This document shows positions 15,601 to 25,319 of a DNA stretch of 32,584 bases, in pieces (the first letter of the stretch is position 1; every line of letters begins with the position of its first letter). The notes beneath the pieces are model-generated. The model ran no database searches. It was not told the origin of the DNA and worked only from the letters and a program-made list of their open reading frames with translations. Source of the stretch: a virus; IMG/VR virus record IMGVR_UViG_3300030329_004064, positions 1 through 32,584 of that record, one strand, 5' to 3'. The position numbers and the translations under genes are program-made.

Positions 15601-15817
15601 GTTGGTCAGGGTCAATACCTTGCCACATTCCACCTGGATTTTCATAAGTACTTCCTTCTATCCCTAAAAAATCAGTACCTTGAACATTTATTGTAAATCC
15701 AGTAGCATGTACATCTTCTATATAATTTACACCAGTATTTATTTTCAATTCTTTATCACCCGTAAAAACAGATGATAAATCAGATAGTCCACCTTGTGAT
15801 TGTCCACCTTGGGCCAT
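12644..15817 (-). CDS. Baseplate protein with an N-terminal array of nine repeats, 1057 residues
   Basis: Residues about 30-500 hold nine imperfect repeats, each with a GF(T/V) core (at 40, 85, 133, 203, 260, 313, 367, 430 and 495; spacing 45-70), usually preceded by H-A-N/T-G and followed by F/L-x-G-I-x-G and Y-x-N-P-G-x-(L/M)W. From about 700 the style changes: YPFYFKDLRNEKILAFRGYI, STRDLNFTMKLYAMNPIELD and RIYAKLDYLTNLCYPQYF look like tail-tube initiator/baseplate proteins of the gp48/gp54 kind, and the C-terminus is GYKYYSDNSDRQ. It overlaps the tape measure stop as TAATG and is followed by the LysM-like gene. I infer an initiator-type baseplate protein carrying a repeat array that may face outward. 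No exact family recognised. Confidence 0.65.
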   Translation of the reverse strand: MAQGGQSQGGLSDLSSVFTGDKELKINTGVNYIEDVHATGFTINVQGTDFLGIEGSTYENPGGMWQGIDPDQQMVNTITDIHSTGFVSYLQEGDDTLFSGIVGNVFTNPGDLGFGGILDSSPIDVINNDFAVGFTPSLEHLSPSLFIGIDGDEYTNPGTLGSILINYQQDLNAPQTQWVTEGSLLGVTSEDVVDTIENIHANGFTWLGPIEEGNIYTTQFNAINGLEFNISPEQGGTIFYEGIEPEFQSVHAPELHFSPGFVPGLTEEDDTLFSGVVGEEFTNLGELWEMSWVDGYHKFDTGINVIPNIHANGFTLNLQPLQEQLVGISVETQDAGPQYQNQGNMWESEYGHIYGGVNWIDTDVMTGFTRNRAPGTGELYNSISEFQGTSIAHYENPGIGLGMHYYTEYDDDGTIDHLIPAGVYNLYMTGFTKNRKHLMDSEFTNITGLPEDLQYTNPGILWTSEWINFSAQITDGVDFINTSGLTGDGGPHATGFTPYIQDEIDGGILSEYHIVDGIANGAGTIYDEIYPGSGDDATFNNYYTDGEGIEIGDGAGYNNIPALIENNAGRTLTIAGNPVTELTLGDIYTNHIDNLIDWEKVQSKTAVGSSYEPFVGNGGFLPLTFDRGTEPYITRPIPSHSDNGNGRDNIVSAHLEDAVRLAKYAISADGVKFMGIQMVSGLGAYMVHRDIKHGSAVNMTEPGKKANQRKYDDIEAGLVGGHQQFQYFYNPLSLFSSNIPFVKVRVTRSWVLDESKYTERKRDGFMGALDVFKNKNAKLNMDVFKQIDPSFGKPFNNQKKNSEEISTLGGDLVNNVNESIDGTPVNVEGIVGDQMTLAPIDKDDIPAISKPADKNIHSVKHGYPFYFKDLRNEKILAFRGYIEDINENVNANWAESTFIGRSEPVYTYQSSTRDLNFTMKLYAMNPIELDRIYAKLDYLTNLCYPQYFKDDNIGYTRPKPPLTRLRLADLYGGQPGGNESAEYINGVLGFIQSINYSFSGPWESVMGDNYKVPRYITANISYKILNDKVPGMDADGNNKGLVPHYGYKYYSDNSDRQ

Positions 15818-18636
15818 TATGCTCTCCTCACCGCTATACCTTCATTTAATAATCTATTCATTAATCTATTATTCTCTTCTAATAATGTATTTGTTTTATT
15901 TTGATTGTCTGAAAGTCCACCTAGAGGACCACTTTTTAATCCCATCACCGTATCATCTGAACTAAATCTTTGTACGGGTTGACCCGGTCTTGAAATAAAA
16001 TCTCCTGCAGGGTCTGGTGCGAACCTATTATCACTAAACGAAACACCATATACTGGTTTAAGGAATGTTGATTTTTCTTTATCTTTTTTAAATTCAATTG
16101 ATGCTATCGTCGCTATCAAGTCTTGAAGTAAGTTACCAAACCATTCTTTAAGTCTTCCAAGTGCACCGTCTTTTCCTTCTAATTTATCCATAGCTTGATT
16201 CATTTTTAATACTAAAGAATCTGCTAAGCCACCTTTTGTTTGTTCTAAACCTAGAGCTTTATAAAAAGCATCTTTAAATTCTGTGTCATTTTCTAATTGT
16301 TTGAATCCTATTTTCATTTGAGTAGCTAAATCTTGAGCAATTGCATTTTCGTCAAAACCAAATAATGTTTTAAGAAAATCCATTCCCGAACGATAACCGG
16401 CTCCTGCCTTATCTTTCATCTTCGCTATATTTTCTTTAGTTTTTTGTGTCAAAGAAGTAAAATCTGTATTTGCTACTTTTTCCATCATAGATTTAGGAGA
16501 AGGGAATATCTTATCAGCTATTTCTTTTAGTTTTACTTTCAATTTTTCCCACGATTCACCCGAAAAAACTACATTCCAATCTATACCCGAAAACCATCCT
16601 GAAAATAAACCTGTAAATGCTCCGCCACCTTTTTTCTCTCCACCCGTTGCCGTAAACAAATCATCACCTATAGCAGTTTTTAATATATTTCCCAAACCTT
16701 CCTCTTCAATTTGTTTTACCGTAGTATCTCCGATTTGTTTGATACTAGTAGCTATTTGTGATTTAGCTTCACCATCAATTATATTACCGACACCTCCACC
16801 TTTACCAAAAAATAAACCACTAAGCAAGCCTTGGCCCGGTTTTATACCCAAAATTTCTTTTAGCTTATTCCAACCTTTTTTAACCAAGTCCCATATGTTT
16901 TCAAACATATTTTTATCTGGGTCGAATTTAAAGAAATCTTTAAATGATTGGATAGCTTCATCCACCGTCATAATTACATCTGTTCCTTTTTTCTTTATCT
17001 TAAAAAATTGAAGTGCCAGGCCTAAAAATTGCCTACCTAAGTTTTTAGCCATATCAACTATAGCTGCACCTTTTGTCATTGGTTTTCCTTTCTCTATTAT
17101 CTTTTCTAATTTACCATTAATTTCTTTCTCTACTTCTTTTTCTTCCCACTTAAAGAAATCTTTACCAATTTCCCATTCTAAATCTTTATTAAATATAATT
17201 CCAAATATACTACCTATTCCTTTTTGTACATCACCTAAAAATCCCGCTGCATTTTCAAAGAATCCTGTCTCCATTATTCTAGTAAAAGTTTTTTCAATCG
17301 TTTCAAAATAAGTTGCACCTTCTTTAGCTGCAGTACTTCTCATTTGTCCTGTAAATGAAGCTTGTAATTCTTCTAATTCAGTTAAAGTATTTTTAGCTGT
17401 TAATAGATTTGTATTAAAACTACCCATTGAATCTTCTTGGATATTATCCATATCAGCTGTTCCTTTAGCTAACTTCATAACTTGTTGAACATTCATATTA
17501 GCAGCTTCAGCTACAGCTTGTAATTGTAATGGAGATAACTCACCCATATCAATACCATCTAATTGCTCTTTAATGGATTCCATCGCTCCGGCTGTATCAC
17601 CAGCGTAGGCTCTTCTTCTAGCTTCGTGTAAATTAATTCTTTTTCCCAACATAATAGAAGCTTGCATTTCTTTATTCAATGAATCTTCAAAATTTAATAA
17701 ACCACTCATTGTATTAGAAACATCTTTAATACTCATACCAAGTTTTCTAGCGTGTATAGCTGATTTTACAAAATTCTCTAAACCACCTTTAGAATATTTA
17801 GCCATATCTTCAGTTGACTCAGATATATCCTGTAATATCTGTCCCGGAGCTACATCGTTCATAGCTGATAATAAACCTACTTGTTCAGATAAAGTGTGAG
17901 CTTGGTCGTGTGAAATATCGTATGCTAAACTAAAACCACCAACGATATTAGTCATAACTTGAGATGTTGTTCCAAGAGCTTTAGCACCGTCTGCTATGTT
18001 AAATGCTAGTTGACCAGACTTAGAAACACCTACACCAAATTCAGATGAAAATACTTGAGCTGTACCAACAACTTCTTGAAATGTTAAACCAGATGTTATA
18101 ATCTGAGATTCAAAATTTCTAAAAAATTCGTTTAAATTATTATTAACTTGTGGGTCTGTAAATACTATTCCTAACTGACTTCTAAGTTCAGCTGTAGTTT
18201 TTTCCCAATGTGAAAGTATTAATGTAAATAATGCCGAGAAAGCAGCCATAAATTTAAATGAAAACATACTTTGTGTTACTTCACCTATAGCACCCATTGT
18301 TTGTGTAACCGTAGAAAATGCCACACTACCAGCTTCTTTCATATGACCACCCATACTACTTCCAAATCGTTTCATAGCCTCTATTCCACTATCAGCTGCA
18401 TGTCTTAAATTTGAACCTAATTCTTGAGCGTGGTCGGCAGCTTGATTTGTATTTCTAGCTGTTTCTCCCATATCACCACCTAGTTGGGTTGCATAACTAA
18501 CTGCTTTACCCATAGCACTACTTAATTGATTAGCTGAAGCTGTAGCACCTACAATTGTATTCTGGATACTTTGAAGAATATCTTGTTGCTTACTTAAAAG
18601 CTGATTCTGTCTTTTTATTTGTTCAGGTGTTGGCAT
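15817..18636 (-). CDS. Tail tape measure protein, 939 residues
   Basis: Sets tail length, like T4 gp29. The N-terminal 120 residues are a helical, Ala/Gln/Ser-rich coiled coil (IKRQNQLLSKQQDILQSIQN and on), followed by a hydrophobic stretch MFSFKFMAAFSALFTLILSHW (124-144). The rest is long, mostly helical, with Lys/Glu-rich and Gly-rich segments (for example GLLSGLFFGKGGGVGN near 610-630) and no enzyme motif. Length and composition fit a tape measure for a medium contractile tail. It follows the chaperone-like frame with a promoter-like element between, and its stop overlaps the next baseplate gene. Name based on context, size and composition. Confidence 0.8.
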   Translation of the reverse strand: MPTPEQIKRQNQLLSKQQDILQSIQNTIVGATASANQLSSAMGKAVSYATQLGGDMGETARNTNQAADHAQELGSNLRHAADSGIEAMKRFGSSMGGHMKEAGSVAFSTVTQTMGAIGEVTQSMFSFKFMAAFSALFTLILSHWEKTTAELRSQLGIVFTDPQVNNNLNEFFRNFESQIITSGLTFQEVVGTAQVFSSEFGVGVSKSGQLAFNIADGAKALGTTSQVMTNIVGGFSLAYDISHDQAHTLSEQVGLLSAMNDVAPGQILQDISESTEDMAKYSKGGLENFVKSAIHARKLGMSIKDVSNTMSGLLNFEDSLNKEMQASIMLGKRINLHEARRRAYAGDTAGAMESIKEQLDGIDMGELSPLQLQAVAEAANMNVQQVMKLAKGTADMDNIQEDSMGSFNTNLLTAKNTLTELEELQASFTGQMRSTAAKEGATYFETIEKTFTRIMETGFFENAAGFLGDVQKGIGSIFGIIFNKDLEWEIGKDFFKWEEKEVEKEINGKLEKIIEKGKPMTKGAAIVDMAKNLGRQFLGLALQFFKIKKKGTDVIMTVDEAIQSFKDFFKFDPDKNMFENIWDLVKKGWNKLKEILGIKPGQGLLSGLFFGKGGGVGNIIDGEAKSQIATSIKQIGDTTVKQIEEEGLGNILKTAIGDDLFTATGGEKKGGGAFTGLFSGWFSGIDWNVVFSGESWEKLKVKLKEIADKIFPSPKSMMEKVANTDFTSLTQKTKENIAKMKDKAGAGYRSGMDFLKTLFGFDENAIAQDLATQMKIGFKQLENDTEFKDAFYKALGLEQTKGGLADSLVLKMNQAMDKLEGKDGALGRLKEWFGNLLQDLIATIASIEFKKDKEKSTFLKPVYGVSFSDNRFAPDPAGDFISRPGQPVQRFSSDDTVMGLKSGPLGGLSDNQNKTNTLLEENNRLMNRLLNEGIAVRRA

Positions 18637-18710: not shown

Positions 18711-18956
18711 TTATCTAGGTTTTTCGAACTGAGGTCTATGAATCTGTGTACCCTTGTTAGGTTTCATAGCTTTTTCCTGTGCGTCATTTTCAGCTTTTCG
18801 TGTATCAGCTAATTTATTAAGATACCACATTCGTAAATAGACTGGCATGTTATAGACTTCTGAAAAACTAAATCCATTACCGTGATAACATAACAGAAAA
18901 ATCTGTTCGTGTATGTCAGGTTTATTCTTAGGCGTTAGGCCAAAAAAAGCTGACGG
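18711..18956 (-). CDS. Second tail-chaperone-like frame, probably read by ribosomal frameshift
   Basis: An open frame of 81 codons with no ATG, GTG or TTG before residue 38 or so; the first ATG lies inside NMPVYLRMWYLNKLAD, a segment that looks conserved. It overlaps the 3' end of the 18928-19695 gene. At 18942-18948 that gene carries seven T's on the sense strand (GC-TTTTTTT-GG). A +1 or -2 slip there joins it to this frame, adding 76-77 residues (total about 327). The gene pair sits just before the tape measure, exactly where lambda-like and many other tailed phages use a G/GT-type frameshift to make two tail-assembly chaperones. A non-ATG start such as CTG is the alternative. Function is inferred from layout, not from a known family match. 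Confidence 0.55.
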   Translation of the reverse strand, partial: PSAFFGLTPKNKPDIHEQIFLLCYHGNGFSFSEVYNMPVYLRMWYLNKLADTRKAENDAQEKAMKPNKGTQIHRPQFEKPR

Positions 18957-19695
18957 TCAGTGGTATTGCTACCTCGACCGTATCACCTCCTGGAAACTCT
19001 ACTTCCTGTGTTAATTCAATATCTGGAGAAATTCGTTGTATTTCGTTTCTCAAAGCTAGTGAATCTTTAGCTAACATATTTTCAACGGATTGACCAATTT
19101 CTAATTTATCTGTAACACCACTATAATCTGTTATTATATGTTTTAATCTTGTTGTTATTGTAGAATCAATTAAAGAACCTAATTTTTTCTTAGATTCAAG
19201 TTCTCTTACAATTGCATCTTCTTCAATACCAGTAAGTAATTTAAATTTAACAACAGATTTAGAAATAGGTAATTGAAATGTAAATTCATTTTTAGAATAA
19301 TTAACATCTTTCGGTAATTCTTTAAATGGACAATCTGTAAGATTAAATTCATAATCCATTTTTTCATCTATATTATCTGGATTCTGTACTTGAACTTGAT
19401 ATTGTGGTCCATATGCTAAAATTCTAATAGCAATCATTATAGCGTTTTTATCACCTAATATTAAATTATTAATTGAAACACCTGGTGTAAGAATCAATGA
19501 ATCCATTAATTTTTCAAGAGCTGCACCTTTCTTTATAAGATTAGTAGAAGTAAGAATATCTTCTTCTTTAGCTGTCATATATTTGATTTCTATTTTACCA
19601 TCATACAATGGTGAATCTTTTCCGTATATTTTACCACCACTAGGTAAATCTACAATTTCACTTGGAAATTTTTGTTGTTGTTTTTCTTCTGGCAT
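18928..19695 (-). CDS. gp26: Baseplate/tail assembly chaperone-like protein, T4 gp26-like, 255 residues
   Basis: The N-terminal part reads PSEIVDLPSGGKIYGKDSPL (11-30), then IEIKYMTAKEEDILTSTNLI (36-55) and GDKNAIMIAIRILAYGPQYQ (81-100), the pattern of the T4 gp26-type baseplate family (PF12322), which is involved in hub assembly. The 3' end encodes SFFWPNA over a T7 run and overlaps a second frame. An AGGAGG ribosome site and ATG at 19695 fit well. Position before the tape measure gene and the overlapping frame suggest it also serves as the tail assembly chaperone (G-like) for the tape measure. Length exceeds T4 gp26 (208). Family call moderate, chaperone role an inference. Confidence 0.68.
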   Translation of the reverse strand: MPEEKQQQKFPSEIVDLPSGGKIYGKDSPLYDGKIEIKYMTAKEEDILTSTNLIKKGAALEKLMDSLILTPGVSINNLILGDKNAIMIAIRILAYGPQYQVQVQNPDNIDEKMDYEFNLTDCPFKELPKDVNYSKNEFTFQLPISKSVVKFKLLTGIEEDAIVRELESKKKLGSLIDSTITTRLKHIITDYSGVTDKLEIGQSVENMLAKDSLALRNEIQRISPDIELTQEVEFPGGDTVEVAIPLTVSFFWPNA

Positions 19696-19704
19696 TTTAG
19701 CCTC

Positions 19705-19887
19705 CTATGATTTTGATTCAGAAACTGATGCTTTTCTGTAGTCTGTAACTAATTTTTTAATTTCACCGATAGCTTTTCTAGCTCTACCACCAGCTGCCTT
19801 TGTACCTTTTTCTGCAAATGTATTATGATTTTCTTCAAATTCAGTAAAAAGATTTTTTATATTATTATATAATTTATCTGTTGACAT
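19705..19887 (-). CDS. Small basic histone H1/Hc1-like protein, 60 residues
   Basis: The sequence runs DKLYNNIKNLFTEFEENH (4-21), then AEKGTKAAGGRARKAIGEI (25-43) and KKLVTDYRKASVSESKS. The two helices joined by KxAGxRARK and the ending YRKASVxESK follow the pattern of the bacterial histone H1-like Hc1 family (PF07432), in which short proteins bind or compact DNA. A GGAG site six or so bases upstream of the ATG supports expression. It lies between the endolysin (10 bases) and the gp26-like gene (9 bases), in the P-20391 operon. DNA binding is an inference; a role in packaged DNA or in host nucleoid change is open. Confidence 0.6.
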   Translation of the reverse strand: MSTDKLYNNIKNLFTEFEENHNTFAEKGTKAAGGRARKAIGEIKKLVTDYRKASVSESKS

Positions 19888-21086: not shown

Positions 21087-23420
21087 TTATTCTTCGAAGG
21101 AAGCACCTGTTCTTTGTATAGTAAAATCTAACATAATGAACTCAGCTGTTTTCGTAGGTTGTAAATAAATCTGACCTATTAATTGATTTCTATCAATTGT
21201 GTTTGCAGTATTATTTGTATCATCCATAACAACTTTGAATGCACTTAAGCCACTTTGTGATTTTACTCTTTCTAAGAATGGTTGAGCTATATTCAAGAAA
21301 GATTTTCTCAATGCTGGTGTATTCTGTTCAAACAATAAGAATCTCGATGAACTCGCTATAAACTTCTTAACTCTAATTAATAATCTTCTAACATTAATTC
21401 TATCAAGTGCTGATAGTTTCTTCTGTAATGTTTTTTGACCGAATACTACAACTCCTTGACCAGGGAAAGTAGCAATTGGATTAACATTAGATTTATAAAG
21501 AGTATTTCTTTGACTTTCAAGAAGTTTTCTTTCAGTTTGTATCGCTGTGACTTTTCCTCTATTTAATCCCGCGGGAGCAAACCATGGTTGAGCTACTTTA
21601 TCGTTGAATGATAATACTTCAGATACAGCTACTGAAGGTGGTATCCATCTAAGTTTAGATTCACTATCAGTAATTTGAACCCAAGGCCAATATGTAGCAG
21701 CATAATTTGTATCAAAACCTTCCGCTTGACTAGTAGCTGTAGTAACATTTGAATCATAATCAGAACAATCAAATACAAAGAATGTGTCTTGTCTATCTTC
21801 ACACATATCAACAGCTTTATTAATTAAAGCACCGTGATTATTAGATGTTAATCCAGGCATAAATAATAAATTAATGTCATATTCATCTTGATTCCTTAAT
21901 AAATTAATCGCGTCTTCATATGAAGTCTTACCATTGGCAGCTGATGTTGGATTAAGTCCTTGTGTATTTGTCTCTGTAATTTTTTCATAGAAGTTTATAG
22001 GTTCTTGTATATTCCCATCTGAACCATTCGCGAATCCACCTCCCTGTGAACCACTACCTTCAGCTGGTAGAGATGCTGAAGCTTCTGGATTTGTTAAATT
22101 TCCATTTTCATCTAAATAATTTGGAGTTTGTTTCATTACTTCAACTCTTACATATTTAGACTTATTAACAAAAGAACCAGAAACTTGAATGTATGGTTCT
22201 GTTGTTCCCGACCCTCGTAATGTTTGTACTTGGTCACCAATAACTCTTGCGATGTAATTATTTTGAGTTGGGTCTAATGATAAATCAGTCCATTGTTCTA
22301 ATACTAATTTTCTTTTTCTTGTATCATTTCCTCTTCTAATAAGTAATGTAAAAGTTCCTCTAGAATTATTTACATCTTGTATTTCCCATCTGAAATTATG
22401 TTTAGAACCACTCTTAATTAAATCATTACTTATATGTTCACCTTTAAATGATGTACTGCTAGCTGTATTTTCATTTTGATTATTAAGTATTGAACCTTCT
22501 GTTAAGGCATGAAGTTTAAATGGTGTACATAATTTAGATAAATTATATGAACCACTACTTACTTGTGTGACAATTGAACCTGATGCAGTACAATCAATTG
22601 TAAGGTCTTGTAAAGCTTTTCTATTATTCCATCTTGTTAATTGTGAACCTGAATAATATGCTCCGGCTACACTTGAAGTAAGTGACAGATATGAACTTGA
22701 AGGTGATGATGACCACGCACTAGCCGAAACATATGAAGTAAGGCCGTGTAATGAACCACTATTATTAATAGAGTCTCTTAAATTTTCAGTAAGATGAGTA
22801 GTGTTTGAACCTGTAGAAACGGTAATAAATGTAGAACTATGTGCTGAGGCTGTAGCTTCTGCTAATTTTTTAAATCTAAATTCTACACCAGCAAAACTCA
22901 TTGAAGTATTGTTATGAATACCAGGTCCGAAAAATATTTGCCCTTTTGCATAATCTGCAACTTGATTCGCGTCTGTATGTGTACCACTACCTAAACCTAT
23001 GACATTCTCATCTATAGATGATAAGATTGCACCTTTGTCACTAACATTTTGTACATGCATATTTTTATGTAATGATGATGAAATCCAAGTATCTACATCG
23101 GCTGGACCGAAACTTGAATTACTAGCTTTACTTGAACCATTACCTGCTACTCTTACTATTGTAACAGGACCTTTATATTTTAAATAATTTTTTGCTGTTA
23201 GTGTTGTGAAATATTCAAAGTTTGCTCCACTCGAACTTTCGTATGTAGTACCAAAGATAGCATCTAATTCGGTAGGATTATTTATTATTGTTGGTACTAA
23301 AATAGGACCTTTCACACAAGGACCTATAATAGCTGCTCCGATATTTCCCAACGCAGCTGGTAAAAAAGAAGCATCTATTTCTTTTGTTAATACACCTGGA
23401 CTTATGATTTTTTCCGACAT
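21087..23420 (-). CDS. gp18: Tail sheath protein paralogue 2, 777 residues, with large insertion
   Basis: Contractile sheath subunit. The N-terminus (MSEKIISPGVLTKEIDASFLPAALGNIGAA) and the last 200 residues (RLLIRVKKFIASSSRFLLFE, KVVMDDTNNTANTIDRNQLI, FTIQRTGASFEE) closely match the neighbouring 611-residue sheath. It is 166 residues longer because of a Ser/Thr/Gly-rich insertion at about 120-320 (for example SASAWSSSPSSSYLSLTSSV), which sits in the outer, variable domain of sheath proteins. T4 gp18 has 659 residues. It is downstream of the 611-residue gene, separated by a hairpin-bearing 63-base gap, and ends at a strong terminator. A decorating or host-range role of the insertion is speculation. 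Confidence 0.88.
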   Translation of the reverse strand: MSEKIISPGVLTKEIDASFLPAALGNIGAAIIGPCVKGPILVPTIINNPTELDAIFGTTYESSSGANFEYFTTLTAKNYLKYKGPVTIVRVAGNGSSKASNSSFGPADVDTWISSSLHKNMHVQNVSDKGAILSSIDENVIGLGSGTHTDANQVADYAKGQIFFGPGIHNNTSMSFAGVEFRFKKLAEATASAHSSTFITVSTGSNTTHLTENLRDSINNSGSLHGLTSYVSASAWSSSPSSSYLSLTSSVAGAYYSGSQLTRWNNRKALQDLTIDCTASGSIVTQVSSGSYNLSKLCTPFKLHALTEGSILNNQNENTASSTSFKGEHISNDLIKSGSKHNFRWEIQDVNNSRGTFTLLIRRGNDTRKRKLVLEQWTDLSLDPTQNNYIARVIGDQVQTLRGSGTTEPYIQVSGSFVNKSKYVRVEVMKQTPNYLDENGNLTNPEASASLPAEGSGSQGGGFANGSDGNIQEPINFYEKITETNTQGLNPTSAANGKTSYEDAINLLRNQDEYDINLLFMPGLTSNNHGALINKAVDMCEDRQDTFFVFDCSDYDSNVTTATSQAEGFDTNYAATYWPWVQITDSESKLRWIPPSVAVSEVLSFNDKVAQPWFAPAGLNRGKVTAIQTERKLLESQRNTLYKSNVNPIATFPGQGVVVFGQKTLQKKLSALDRINVRRLLIRVKKFIASSSRFLLFEQNTPALRKSFLNIAQPFLERVKSQSGLSAFKVVMDDTNNTANTIDRNQLIGQIYLQPTKTAEFIMLDFTIQRTGASFEE

Positions 23421-23483: not shown

Positions 23484-25319
23484 TTATTCAGGAAACGCTG
23501 CACCTGTTGGTTGAATTGTGAAATCAAGAATAATAAATTCAGCTGTTCTTGTTGGTTGTAAGAATATCTGACCTATCAGCTGATTTCTATCAATCGTATC
23601 AGGTGTATTATTTGTATCATCCATTACCACTCTAAACGCACTCAAACCACTCTGTGATTGAACTTGTTCAAGGAATGGATTAACAATGTTCAAGAATCTT
23701 TTTCTCAATTGAGTAGTGTTTTGTTCAAACACCAAGAATCTTGAAGAAGAAGCGATAAACTTCTTAACTCTTATAAGTAGTCGTCTTACATTAACTCTAT
23801 CAAGAGCCGAAGCTTTCTTCTGTAATGTTTTTTGTCCAAACACCGTTACACCCTGTCCAGGGAAGGTTGCTATTGGATTAACATTCGAATCATATAATGT
23901 GTCTCTCTGACTTAATAAAAGTTTTCTTTCTGCTTGGATTACGGTATCAAGACCACCACGATTTAGACCTGCTGGTGCAAACCATGGATGAGCTACTTTA
24001 TCATTAAATGCATATACACCACCAAGTACAACTGAAGGTGGTACCCATCTCAATGAACCATTTACTCGTGCATCTGCTATTTGAACCCAAGGCCAATAAA
24101 CGGCTGCGTAATTTGTATCAATTGTATCAGCTTGCTGTGTGGCTACTGAAACACTAGAATTGTAATTTGTACAATCTGCTATATAAAAAGCATCTGCTCT
24201 ACTTTCACACATATCAACTGCTTTTTGAACAAGTGTACTACTATTCTGAATAGTAAGACCCGGCATCAATAATAAATTTATATCATATTCATCTTGATTC
24301 GCTAAAAGATTAATAGCATCTTCATATAATGTTTTAACAAGAGTATTACCCGGATTAAATCCTTGTACATTTGTTGAACTAACACTTTCATAAAAAGCTG
24401 CTGGAACTGATGCTGAATATCCGTGTTGATTACCCCATAAATCAAAATCATTTGCTCCGGCAGTAGCTTCTGAGAAAGATGAACTTTGATTACCTGGTAA
24501 AGAACCTGTTAAAACACCATCTCTTCGTGTACCATTTTCATCTAAATAATTAGGTGTTGGTGAAGCTATTGATTTAACTCTTATAAATTTAGATTTAACT
24601 GGAAATTCTCCAGTTGTTTTAATATATGGTTCACTTGTTCCACTACCTTCAAGACTGAAATCTTGGTTACCAATAACTCTTTCTATATAATTATTTGAAT
24701 TAGGGTCAATTGAAACATTGTTCCAACTTTCTAATACTGATTTTCTTTTAATAGTATCACCACCACTTCTAACTAATACATTAAAAGTTCCTTTTGTTAT
24801 ATTTCTACCTGTAATTTCTATTCTGTAATTATCTGAAGAACCTGAAATTAGTGTATTATTACTACCTGCATGAGAACCAGAATGGTCTGTATACGCTGCT
24901 CTTCCATTTCCATAATTATTATAGATAATACCATCACCTATTGTTTCAAATGTTATTGATGCGTCCGGGGTTCCACTTGTTTGAGACTGAATATAAGTCT
25001 CACCATCTTTCGCTTTATAAACGACTGCAGATGCTGGTGTACCGTCTGAAATTCTAATTACGGTTAATGGACCGGCATTTTGTAAATATTGTTCGGCTGC
25101 GTGTGAAGTTAAGTATTGATAATAATTTGAACCACTCCTAAATGTTGTACCAAATGTGTTTTCAAACTCACTAAATGTTTGAACTACGGTAGGAATCATA
25201 GCTGGACCCTTAACCGTTGGTCCTATGATTGCTGCTCCAATATCACCAATTGCTGCTGGTAAAAACGAAGCGTCTATTTCGTTGGTAAATACACCGGGAG
25301 ATACGACTTTTTCTGCCAT
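23484..25319 (-). CDS. gp18: Tail sheath protein paralogue 1, T4 gp18-like, 611 residues
   Basis: Contractile sheath subunit. The N-terminus MAEKVVSPGVFTNEIDASFL (1-20) is the typical sheath start that hooks onto the neighbouring subunit. The C-terminal domain contains NVNPIATFPGQGVTVFGQKT, then RVNVRRLLIRVKKFIASSSR, and ends DFTIQPTGAAFPE, the strongly conserved sheath core that forms the handshake with other subunits and lines the tube. It has its own promoter-like element about 65 bases upstream and AGGAG before the ATG. Its paralogue follows directly. The shorter middle region makes it closest in length to T4 gp18 (659), so it may be the basic sheath. Confidence 0.9.
   Translation of the reverse strand: MAEKVVSPGVFTNEIDASFLPAAIGDIGAAIIGPTVKGPAMIPTVVQTFSEFENTFGTTFRSGSNYYQYLTSHAAEQYLQNAGPLTVIRISDGTPASAVVYKAKDGETYIQSQTSGTPDASITFETIGDGIIYNNYGNGRAAYTDHSGSHAGSNNTLISGSSDNYRIEITGRNITKGTFNVLVRSGGDTIKRKSVLESWNNVSIDPNSNNYIERVIGNQDFSLEGSGTSEPYIKTTGEFPVKSKFIRVKSIASPTPNYLDENGTRRDGVLTGSLPGNQSSSFSEATAGANDFDLWGNQHGYSASVPAAFYESVSSTNVQGFNPGNTLVKTLYEDAINLLANQDEYDINLLLMPGLTIQNSSTLVQKAVDMCESRADAFYIADCTNYNSSVSVATQQADTIDTNYAAVYWPWVQIADARVNGSLRWVPPSVVLGGVYAFNDKVAHPWFAPAGLNRGGLDTVIQAERKLLLSQRDTLYDSNVNPIATFPGQGVTVFGQKTLQKKASALDRVNVRRLLIRVKKFIASSSRFLVFEQNTTQLRKRFLNIVNPFLEQVQSQSGLSAFRVVMDDTNNTPDTIDRNQLIGQIFLQPTRTAEFIILDFTIQPTGAAFPE

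Follow-up and report, generated by a model that had tools for sequence, protein, structure and literature searches.

The sequence evidence makes it very probable that a T4-like pair of tail-assembly chaperones, TAC-N and a longer fusion TAC-NC, is made by a +1 ribosomal frameshift, with an upstream hairpin as the stimulator. The locus lies in a window, i.e. the whole stretch of viral DNA that was analysed, 32,584 nucleotides long (IMG/VR record IMGVR_UViG_3300030329_004064). An overlapping frame, its conservation among relatives, a slip motif and the covariation of the hairpin are the observations on which this view is built. The comparative data give strong support to the original prediction of a G/GT-type programmed shift ahead of the tape measure gene. 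The features of the locus are the following:

15817..18636, minus strand: tape measure gene, 939 aa (from its position and a BLASTP match to the immuto tape measure)
18711..18956, minus strand: +1 open frame including its stop, coding for TAC-C, 77 residues after slip Phe250
18711..19695, minus strand: TAC-NC, the putative 327-aa fusion made via the +1 shift (read through with AGCT taken as S)
18928..18930, minus strand: 0-frame stop UAA
18928..19695, minus strand: TAC-N, gp26-like 0-frame product of 255 aa (an ORF with PF12322 and phrog_150 matches)
18937..18948, minus strand: conserved slip region TTTTTTTGGCCT, read as FFWP in frame 0 and as F-F-G-L in frame +1
18946..18948, minus strand: slip codon UUU for the leading Phe of FF, with a pyrimidine as the next base; putative P-site codon during the +1 slip
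18953..18981, minus strand: stem-loop ACGGUC-GA-GGUA-GCAA-UACC-ACU-GACCGU, ending 4 nt 5' of the slip UUU (from the fold, covariation and shuffle z)

The 3' end of the gp26-like gene reads AGC TTT TTT TGG CCT AAC GCC TAA on the minus strand, with a T7 run on this sense strand at 18948-18942. The +1 frame is limited upstream by a TGA (18959-18957), is open from 18956 to 18714 and ends in a TAA (18713-18711), and its first ATG, GTG or TTG is an ATG located 33 codons past the slip, inside NMPVYLR. The T run, the overlapping frame and the absence of a start before this ATG had all been pointed out beforehand and are confirmed in the window sequence; the expected gain of 76-77 residues agrees with the 77 that the shift adds after the slip Phe. 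The chance of a frame of such length by composition is about 6e-3 for the plus strand and is estimated at about 1e-3 for the sense strand, which is unusual but not astronomically rare. We consider the frame non-chance because the overlapping frame is conserved in 86 of 88 loci.

The N domain of TAC-N matches PF12322 (T4_baseplate; E 9.4e-11, 42.2 bits against a cut-off of 24.5), a family that is matched by both T4 gp26 and T4 gp51, and the protein also matches phrog_150 at E 2.4e-11. The locus is directly upstream of the tape measure gene, as judged from gene order and from the similarity of the 939-aa protein to the one annotated as tape measure in Flavobacterium phage immuto (BLASTP E 1e-12 over 93 residues); the 939-aa protein itself has no PHROG or Pfam match. 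An AlphaFold2 model of the 327-aa fusion, computed without an alignment, had a pLDDT of 35 and was set aside. A search of the window against Rfam gave no match, and no tRNA genes were found in it. The window also carries two tandem tail sheath genes (21087-23420 and 23484-25319, both phrog_23), a 60-aa ORF within the tail module (19705-19887) that belongs to the histone H1-like Hc1 family (PF07432, E 1.5e-17), and a GH108-type endolysin gene (PF05838, 19898-20371) located between the genes for tail tube and tail chaperone; the endolysin is found in contig L002 as well.

The loci compared were those of the window, of the IMG/VR contig L002 (83% identical in the N domain), of seven phage records and of 80 further IMG/VR contigs; L023 was left out as it is cut before the gene end. 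In 86 of these 88 loci, the window counted and isolates among them, the +1 frame is open across the gene end, and it extends for about 54-114 further codons unless cut short by the end of the contig, which falls within the frame in five cases. Only L019, with a premature stop, and LR756511 (L007), whose extension lies in the -1 frame, depart from this. The gp26-like gene of L019 stops before its usual end and is likely an assembly error or a decayed copy. Three loci with a longer -1 frame (L040, L042 and L051) were considered as -1 cases and rejected, since the conserved domain is encoded by their +1 frame.

The +1 products share the pattern FFGLxP...IHEEIFxLxYHGxGGFTFxDVYNMPxYLRxFYxKxL. Beyond the 0-frame stop, dN/dS values of close pairs are between 0.04 and 0.16, i.e. 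there is purifying selection, the absence of which would have spoken against the frameshift. For the window and L002, pS is 0.69 and pN is 0.25, and the resulting ratio of about 0.16 (Jukes-Cantor) is a rough value with synonymous sites near saturation. Distant pairs give values near or above 1; the analysis is restricted to close pairs because distant ones saturate the synonymous sites and align poorly. The wobble position, i.e. the least conserved one, is the third codon base of frame 0 before the slip and that of frame +1 after it. An hhalign comparison of 32 +1-frame C domains with 8 -1-frame C domains gave a probability of 82% and E 1e-5 over 55 columns, which is moderate support, and the end of T4 gp51 is similar to the C domains by eye. 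A weak similarity of the C domain to Pfam DUF6760 (PF20546; best E 0.0044, 4 of 32 members, below the cut-off) is not claimed as an assignment.

In the subclade of the window, the slip UUU is preceded by a covarying stem-loop whose end is 3-5 nt 5' of it, a position that abuts the E-site codon; the original prediction did not include this element. The 48 nt that include the hairpin of the window have a predicted folding energy of -13.9 kcal/mol. When 39-nt segments ending at the slip were compared with synonymous resamplings in 72 loci, the natural sequences were more stable (mean z -2.13), and segments that end at least 24 nt upstream of the slip had z values near zero. Split by group, the mean z was lowest for the window's subclade (-4.0), reached -1.4 for the remaining members of the clade and was about zero for the SP-15-like phages; with GC3-matched resamplings the respective values are -2.95, -0.70 and +0.5, and the window alone reaches only -1.4. 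Pair counts point in the same direction: 89.4% of the cells are paired in the window's subclade, as opposed to 76.7% after shuffling and 19-56% with slid partners, and there are 26 double-change cells against 8.2 after shuffling. At -31/-7, where both partners are third codon bases, 27 of 27 sequences are paired, with six pair types among them. A second hairpin class (B1) has a shorter stem with the 3' arm at the same position, is 90.9% paired and covaries; outside the window's subclade the hairpin is weaker.

A covariance model constructed with the window and L002 left out recovered the element of the window at E 4.7e-16, much of the score coming from primary sequence; it had no further match in the window and did not match any -1 or SP-15-like locus. 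RNAalifold, applied to the alignment of the window's subclade (A2/group A), returned a weak and different fold and did not pick the helix, and our verdict on the hairpin rests on the pair counts and the synonymous shuffles. What is found is a stable stem a few nucleotides 5' of the shift site with its pairing under selection, as expected of a refolding hairpin. No comparable upstream structure was seen in sixteen -1 loci (mean z -0.16). Downstream of the slip, segments of the +1 frame have mean z values between -0.9 and -0.35, a weak folding from which no downstream stimulator is claimed. A Shine-Dalgarno-like element, GGAGGTGAT (GGAGGTGA), is located at 18982-18990 of the window, about 34-43 nt upstream of the slip, and is retained by about 13 members of the window's subclade; it was rejected as a stimulator, being too far away for a ribosome at the slip.

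The hairpin might be real and yet only block -1 shifts, or have another role such as mRNA stability, in which case the +1 shift would need only UUU-Y. The hairpin is not indispensable for +1, since the SP-15/LIS04/GXN1 group has the +1 frame with no detectable hairpin, and published upstream hairpins also attenuate -1 shifts (PMC3639245, PMC6321510). However, the spacing of 3-5 nt matches that of the RF2 stimulator, and the hairpin tracks the +1 loci and is absent in the -1 loci, so we regard a hairpin with no part in the +1 shift as unlikely and retain it as the probable stimulator.

The slip site has the overall pattern [not U]-UUU-Y. Most loci have UUU-UUU-UGG, and seven, including the isolate immuto, have UUU-CUU-UGG; the rarer variants are UUU-UUA-UGG (L088), UUU-CUA-UUC (L005), UUU-UUU-CAC (SP-15), UUU-UUU-AGU (LIS04) and UUC-UUU-CGU (GXN1). 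Among 72 non-redundant loci the script calls UUU at the slip in 71 (binomial P 3e-7 relative to usage in the gene, shared ancestry uncorrected), and the next base is T or C in all 72, as compared to 25% after other UUU codons (again uncorrected). The base before the slip UUU is C in the window and is U in a single locus out of 72, where about 28 would be expected from third positions that are 38% U (shared ancestry uncorrected). The codon 5' of the slip UUU (18949-18951 in the window) ends with G or C in 60 of the 72 loci, as opposed to the 12.4 expected from amino acid and codon usage (likewise uncorrected for ancestry), and no such bias is found in the codons preceding other UUU codons. The avoidance of U before the slip UUU fits a blocking of -1 shifts, but this does not explain why G is preferred over A. 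UUU-pyrimidine sites are reportedly prone to +1 shifts, a finding ascribed to Schwartz and Curran (1997).

The direction of the shift had been left open between +1 and -2. A -2 frameshift, known from the tail genes of phage Mu (PMC5009743), would lead into the same target frame with one residue more, and the necessary re-pairing is possible wherever the run is T7. A shift of the Mu type would need re-pairing two bases back at every site, and GXN1 (UUC UUU CGU) and L005 (UUU CUA UUC) allow none that is free of mismatches; because of these two +1 is favoured, and all variants fit +1 at UUU-Y. In addition, a hairpin abutting the E site is expected to oppose backward movement (PMC6321510), and we consider the -2 reading improbable.

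Transcriptional slippage on the T run, giving a mixed mRNA population, would draw on the seven T's present in the window and in most relatives. A run of seven bases is short for the polymerase, however, and slippage would leave the hairpin and the bias of the base at -1 unexplained; moreover, the run is broken in eight loci, the cultured immuto among them, where TTTCTTT or TTTCTA contains no run longer than three and the frame is intact. This explanation is very improbable. The broken runs also bear on the original prediction, which had taken loss of the T run with an intact frame as evidence against itself. Such loci do occur (seven with TTT CTT TGG, one with TTT CTA TTC), yet UUU-pyrimidine is kept in each of them, which means that the mechanism has to be corrected from the run to the UUU-Y site and the frameshift reading is not refuted.

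TAC-C could also be thought of as a separate protein, made by translational coupling or from a weak start codon, in as much as a small ORF is annotated at this place in Mel-JY01, immuto and SP-15 and some loci have an in-frame TTG or GTG upstream. But there is no conserved start codon for TAC-C among the relatives, where an ordinary start would have counted against a frameshift, and 28 of 86 loci have no start until more than 20 codons past the slip, i.e. inside the conserved domain. The +1 frame of the window is closed by the TGA three codons upstream of the slip, and conservation starts at the slip itself (FFGL), so that a separate TAC-C is again very hard to credit. In the records MW353176, PP395634 and NC_031245, the TAC-C region appears as a separate small hypothetical gene or is partly missed. 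Finally, an assembly error in the form of a homopolymer indel, conceivable at a site of this kind, is refuted by the conservation, as 86 records, among them complete isolate genomes and variants with a broken run, show one and the same relation of the frames.

The occurrence of the slip, its direction and rate, the action of the hairpin and the chaperone function are inferred. In the proposed +1 mechanism most ribosomes would stop at 18928 and give TAC-N. A minority would slip by +1, the tRNA-Phe on the first UUU (18948-18946) re-pairing one base further on (with UUU, or UUC in some relatives), and reading would continue with UUU GGC CUA... to yield TAC-NC, the C-terminal domain of which may be comparable to the end of T4 gp51. 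The ribosome would unwind the stem-loop (18981-18953), which would then refold behind it. When the first UUU occupies the P site, the base of the stem would abut the E-site codon, at a distance of three to four bases from the codon in the P site, and the refolded stem would favour forward over backward movement, in place of the Shine-Dalgarno helix of RF2. TAC-N would coat the tape measure and TAC-NC would recruit tube subunits; the product ratio and the chaperone roles are taken from the lambda model (PMC5009743). In E. coli lysate, Huang, Cho and Chang found that upstream hairpins stimulate +1 and attenuate -1 shifts, a 12-bp upstream hairpin reaching about 60% of the +1 stimulation seen with the Shine-Dalgarno helix and reducing -1; the site in those measurements was CUU-UGA in a system lacking RF2, and not UUU-Y (PMC6321510).

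Most of the other T4-like relatives examined have a comparable extension in the -1 frame at the homologous place, which the original prediction had not noted. This is the case in P-SSM2, HTVC008M, Cr30, Syn9, Ochrobactrum phage OC, Moby and AsFcp_2, as well as in RHph_I46, PVA8, 121Q, PA5oct, Atu_ph07 and XacN1, and the site in these phages is T-TTT-TTC, T-TTT-TTT or a close variant. K364 (L110) and ZQ1 (L111) have -1 extensions at non-standard heptamers, CTT TTT GCG and ATT TTC ATT. L007, a 595-kb phage record, has -1 at T TTT TTC, and SP-15-like phages and relatives from the window's clade in the same broad family are +1. The window has no -1 heptamer (X XXY YYZ), as UUU is preceded by C and the +1 frame carries the extension. 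In a quick N-domain tree, the window's clade together with LR756508 forms one group of 46 rows (SH-aLRT 99), all +1, and a second +1 group consists of SP-15, LIS04 and GXN1. The frameshift direction must apparently have changed at least twice, deep placements being unsure on long branches. We lean slightly towards the view that a large clade of T4-like marine phages turned -1 into +1 at the same codon pair, with the base before UUU changed and the self-complementary hairpin added as stimulator, refolding where the mRNA leaves the ribosome.

It is useful to compare the locus with known systems. Tail chaperones of T4-like phages, related to gp26 and gp51, are reportedly frameshifted in some groups (Vladimirov, Gautam and Davidson 2022, Virology 566:9). 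A later paper cites poly-T -1 signals in T4-like chaperones from the 2022 study (PMC12846349), and another also cites that study (PMC10885494). The window shares with the T4-like chaperones the PF12322 N domain, the position upstream of the tape measure gene, the gp51-like C-terminal extension and the shift at the homologous FF. The differences are that T4 has two genes (gp26 and gp51) in place of a putative frameshifted pair, and that the inspected T4-like groups use -1 at U-UUU-UUC/U, where no upstream hairpin was detected, as opposed to +1 with a hairpin. In the G/GT system of lambda, too, two tail chaperones, one short and one long, share a start and are encoded ahead of the tape measure gene, as inferred for the window; lambda shifts by -1, and the likeness is one of arrangement.

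The RF2 gene (prfB) has in common with the window the +1 direction, the slip of a P-site tRNA on a pyrimidine run and a stimulator about three nt upstream that abuts the E site (PMC12421855). RF2 relies on a Shine-Dalgarno helix and has a stop codon in the A site, whereas the window has an mRNA hairpin and a sense codon there; Shine-Dalgarno hexamers near the RF2-type spacing are found in 1 of 72 loci, and the site is not of the RF2 type. Upstream refolding hairpins that were designed or derived from SARS-CoV also lie close upstream, raise +1 and lower -1 (PMC3639245, PMC6321510), as the hairpin of the window probably does; those are parts of reporter constructs or a -1 attenuator, unlike the conserved natural element at a +1 site seen here. 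The haloarchaeal myovirus HSTV-2, compared by description, is a case where a +1 frameshift, i.e. the same direction, was suggested for the tail chaperone locus of a myovirus (PMC5009743).

Frameshifted T4-like tail chaperones were already known, and the +1 direction in this clade together with a covarying upstream hairpin appears to be new; in a search largely confined to papers outside subscription, we found no description of this direction in the window's clade or of a natural covarying upstream hairpin. We know of no upstream hairpin reported for HSTV-2. To our knowledge, upstream hairpins have been seen to drive +1 shifts in laboratory constructs only, and the present case, if true, would be the first natural +1 frameshift of this kind known to us. 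We speculate that such a device may suit hosts which make little use of Shine-Dalgarno pairing (the host of immuto is Flavobacterium sp. LMO8). Frameshift direction is usually fixed for a given site, but here homologous genes appear to use the same codons for slips of either -1 or +1; judging from the sequences, the direction may be set by the base before UUU and the hairpin behind the ribosome. The locus may offer a natural system in which an effect seen in reporter constructs can be tested. In addition, the annotation of an abundant group of uncultured phages would gain a protein that it lacks, and the story of T4-like chaperones would reach phages from Flavobacterium to Microcystis.
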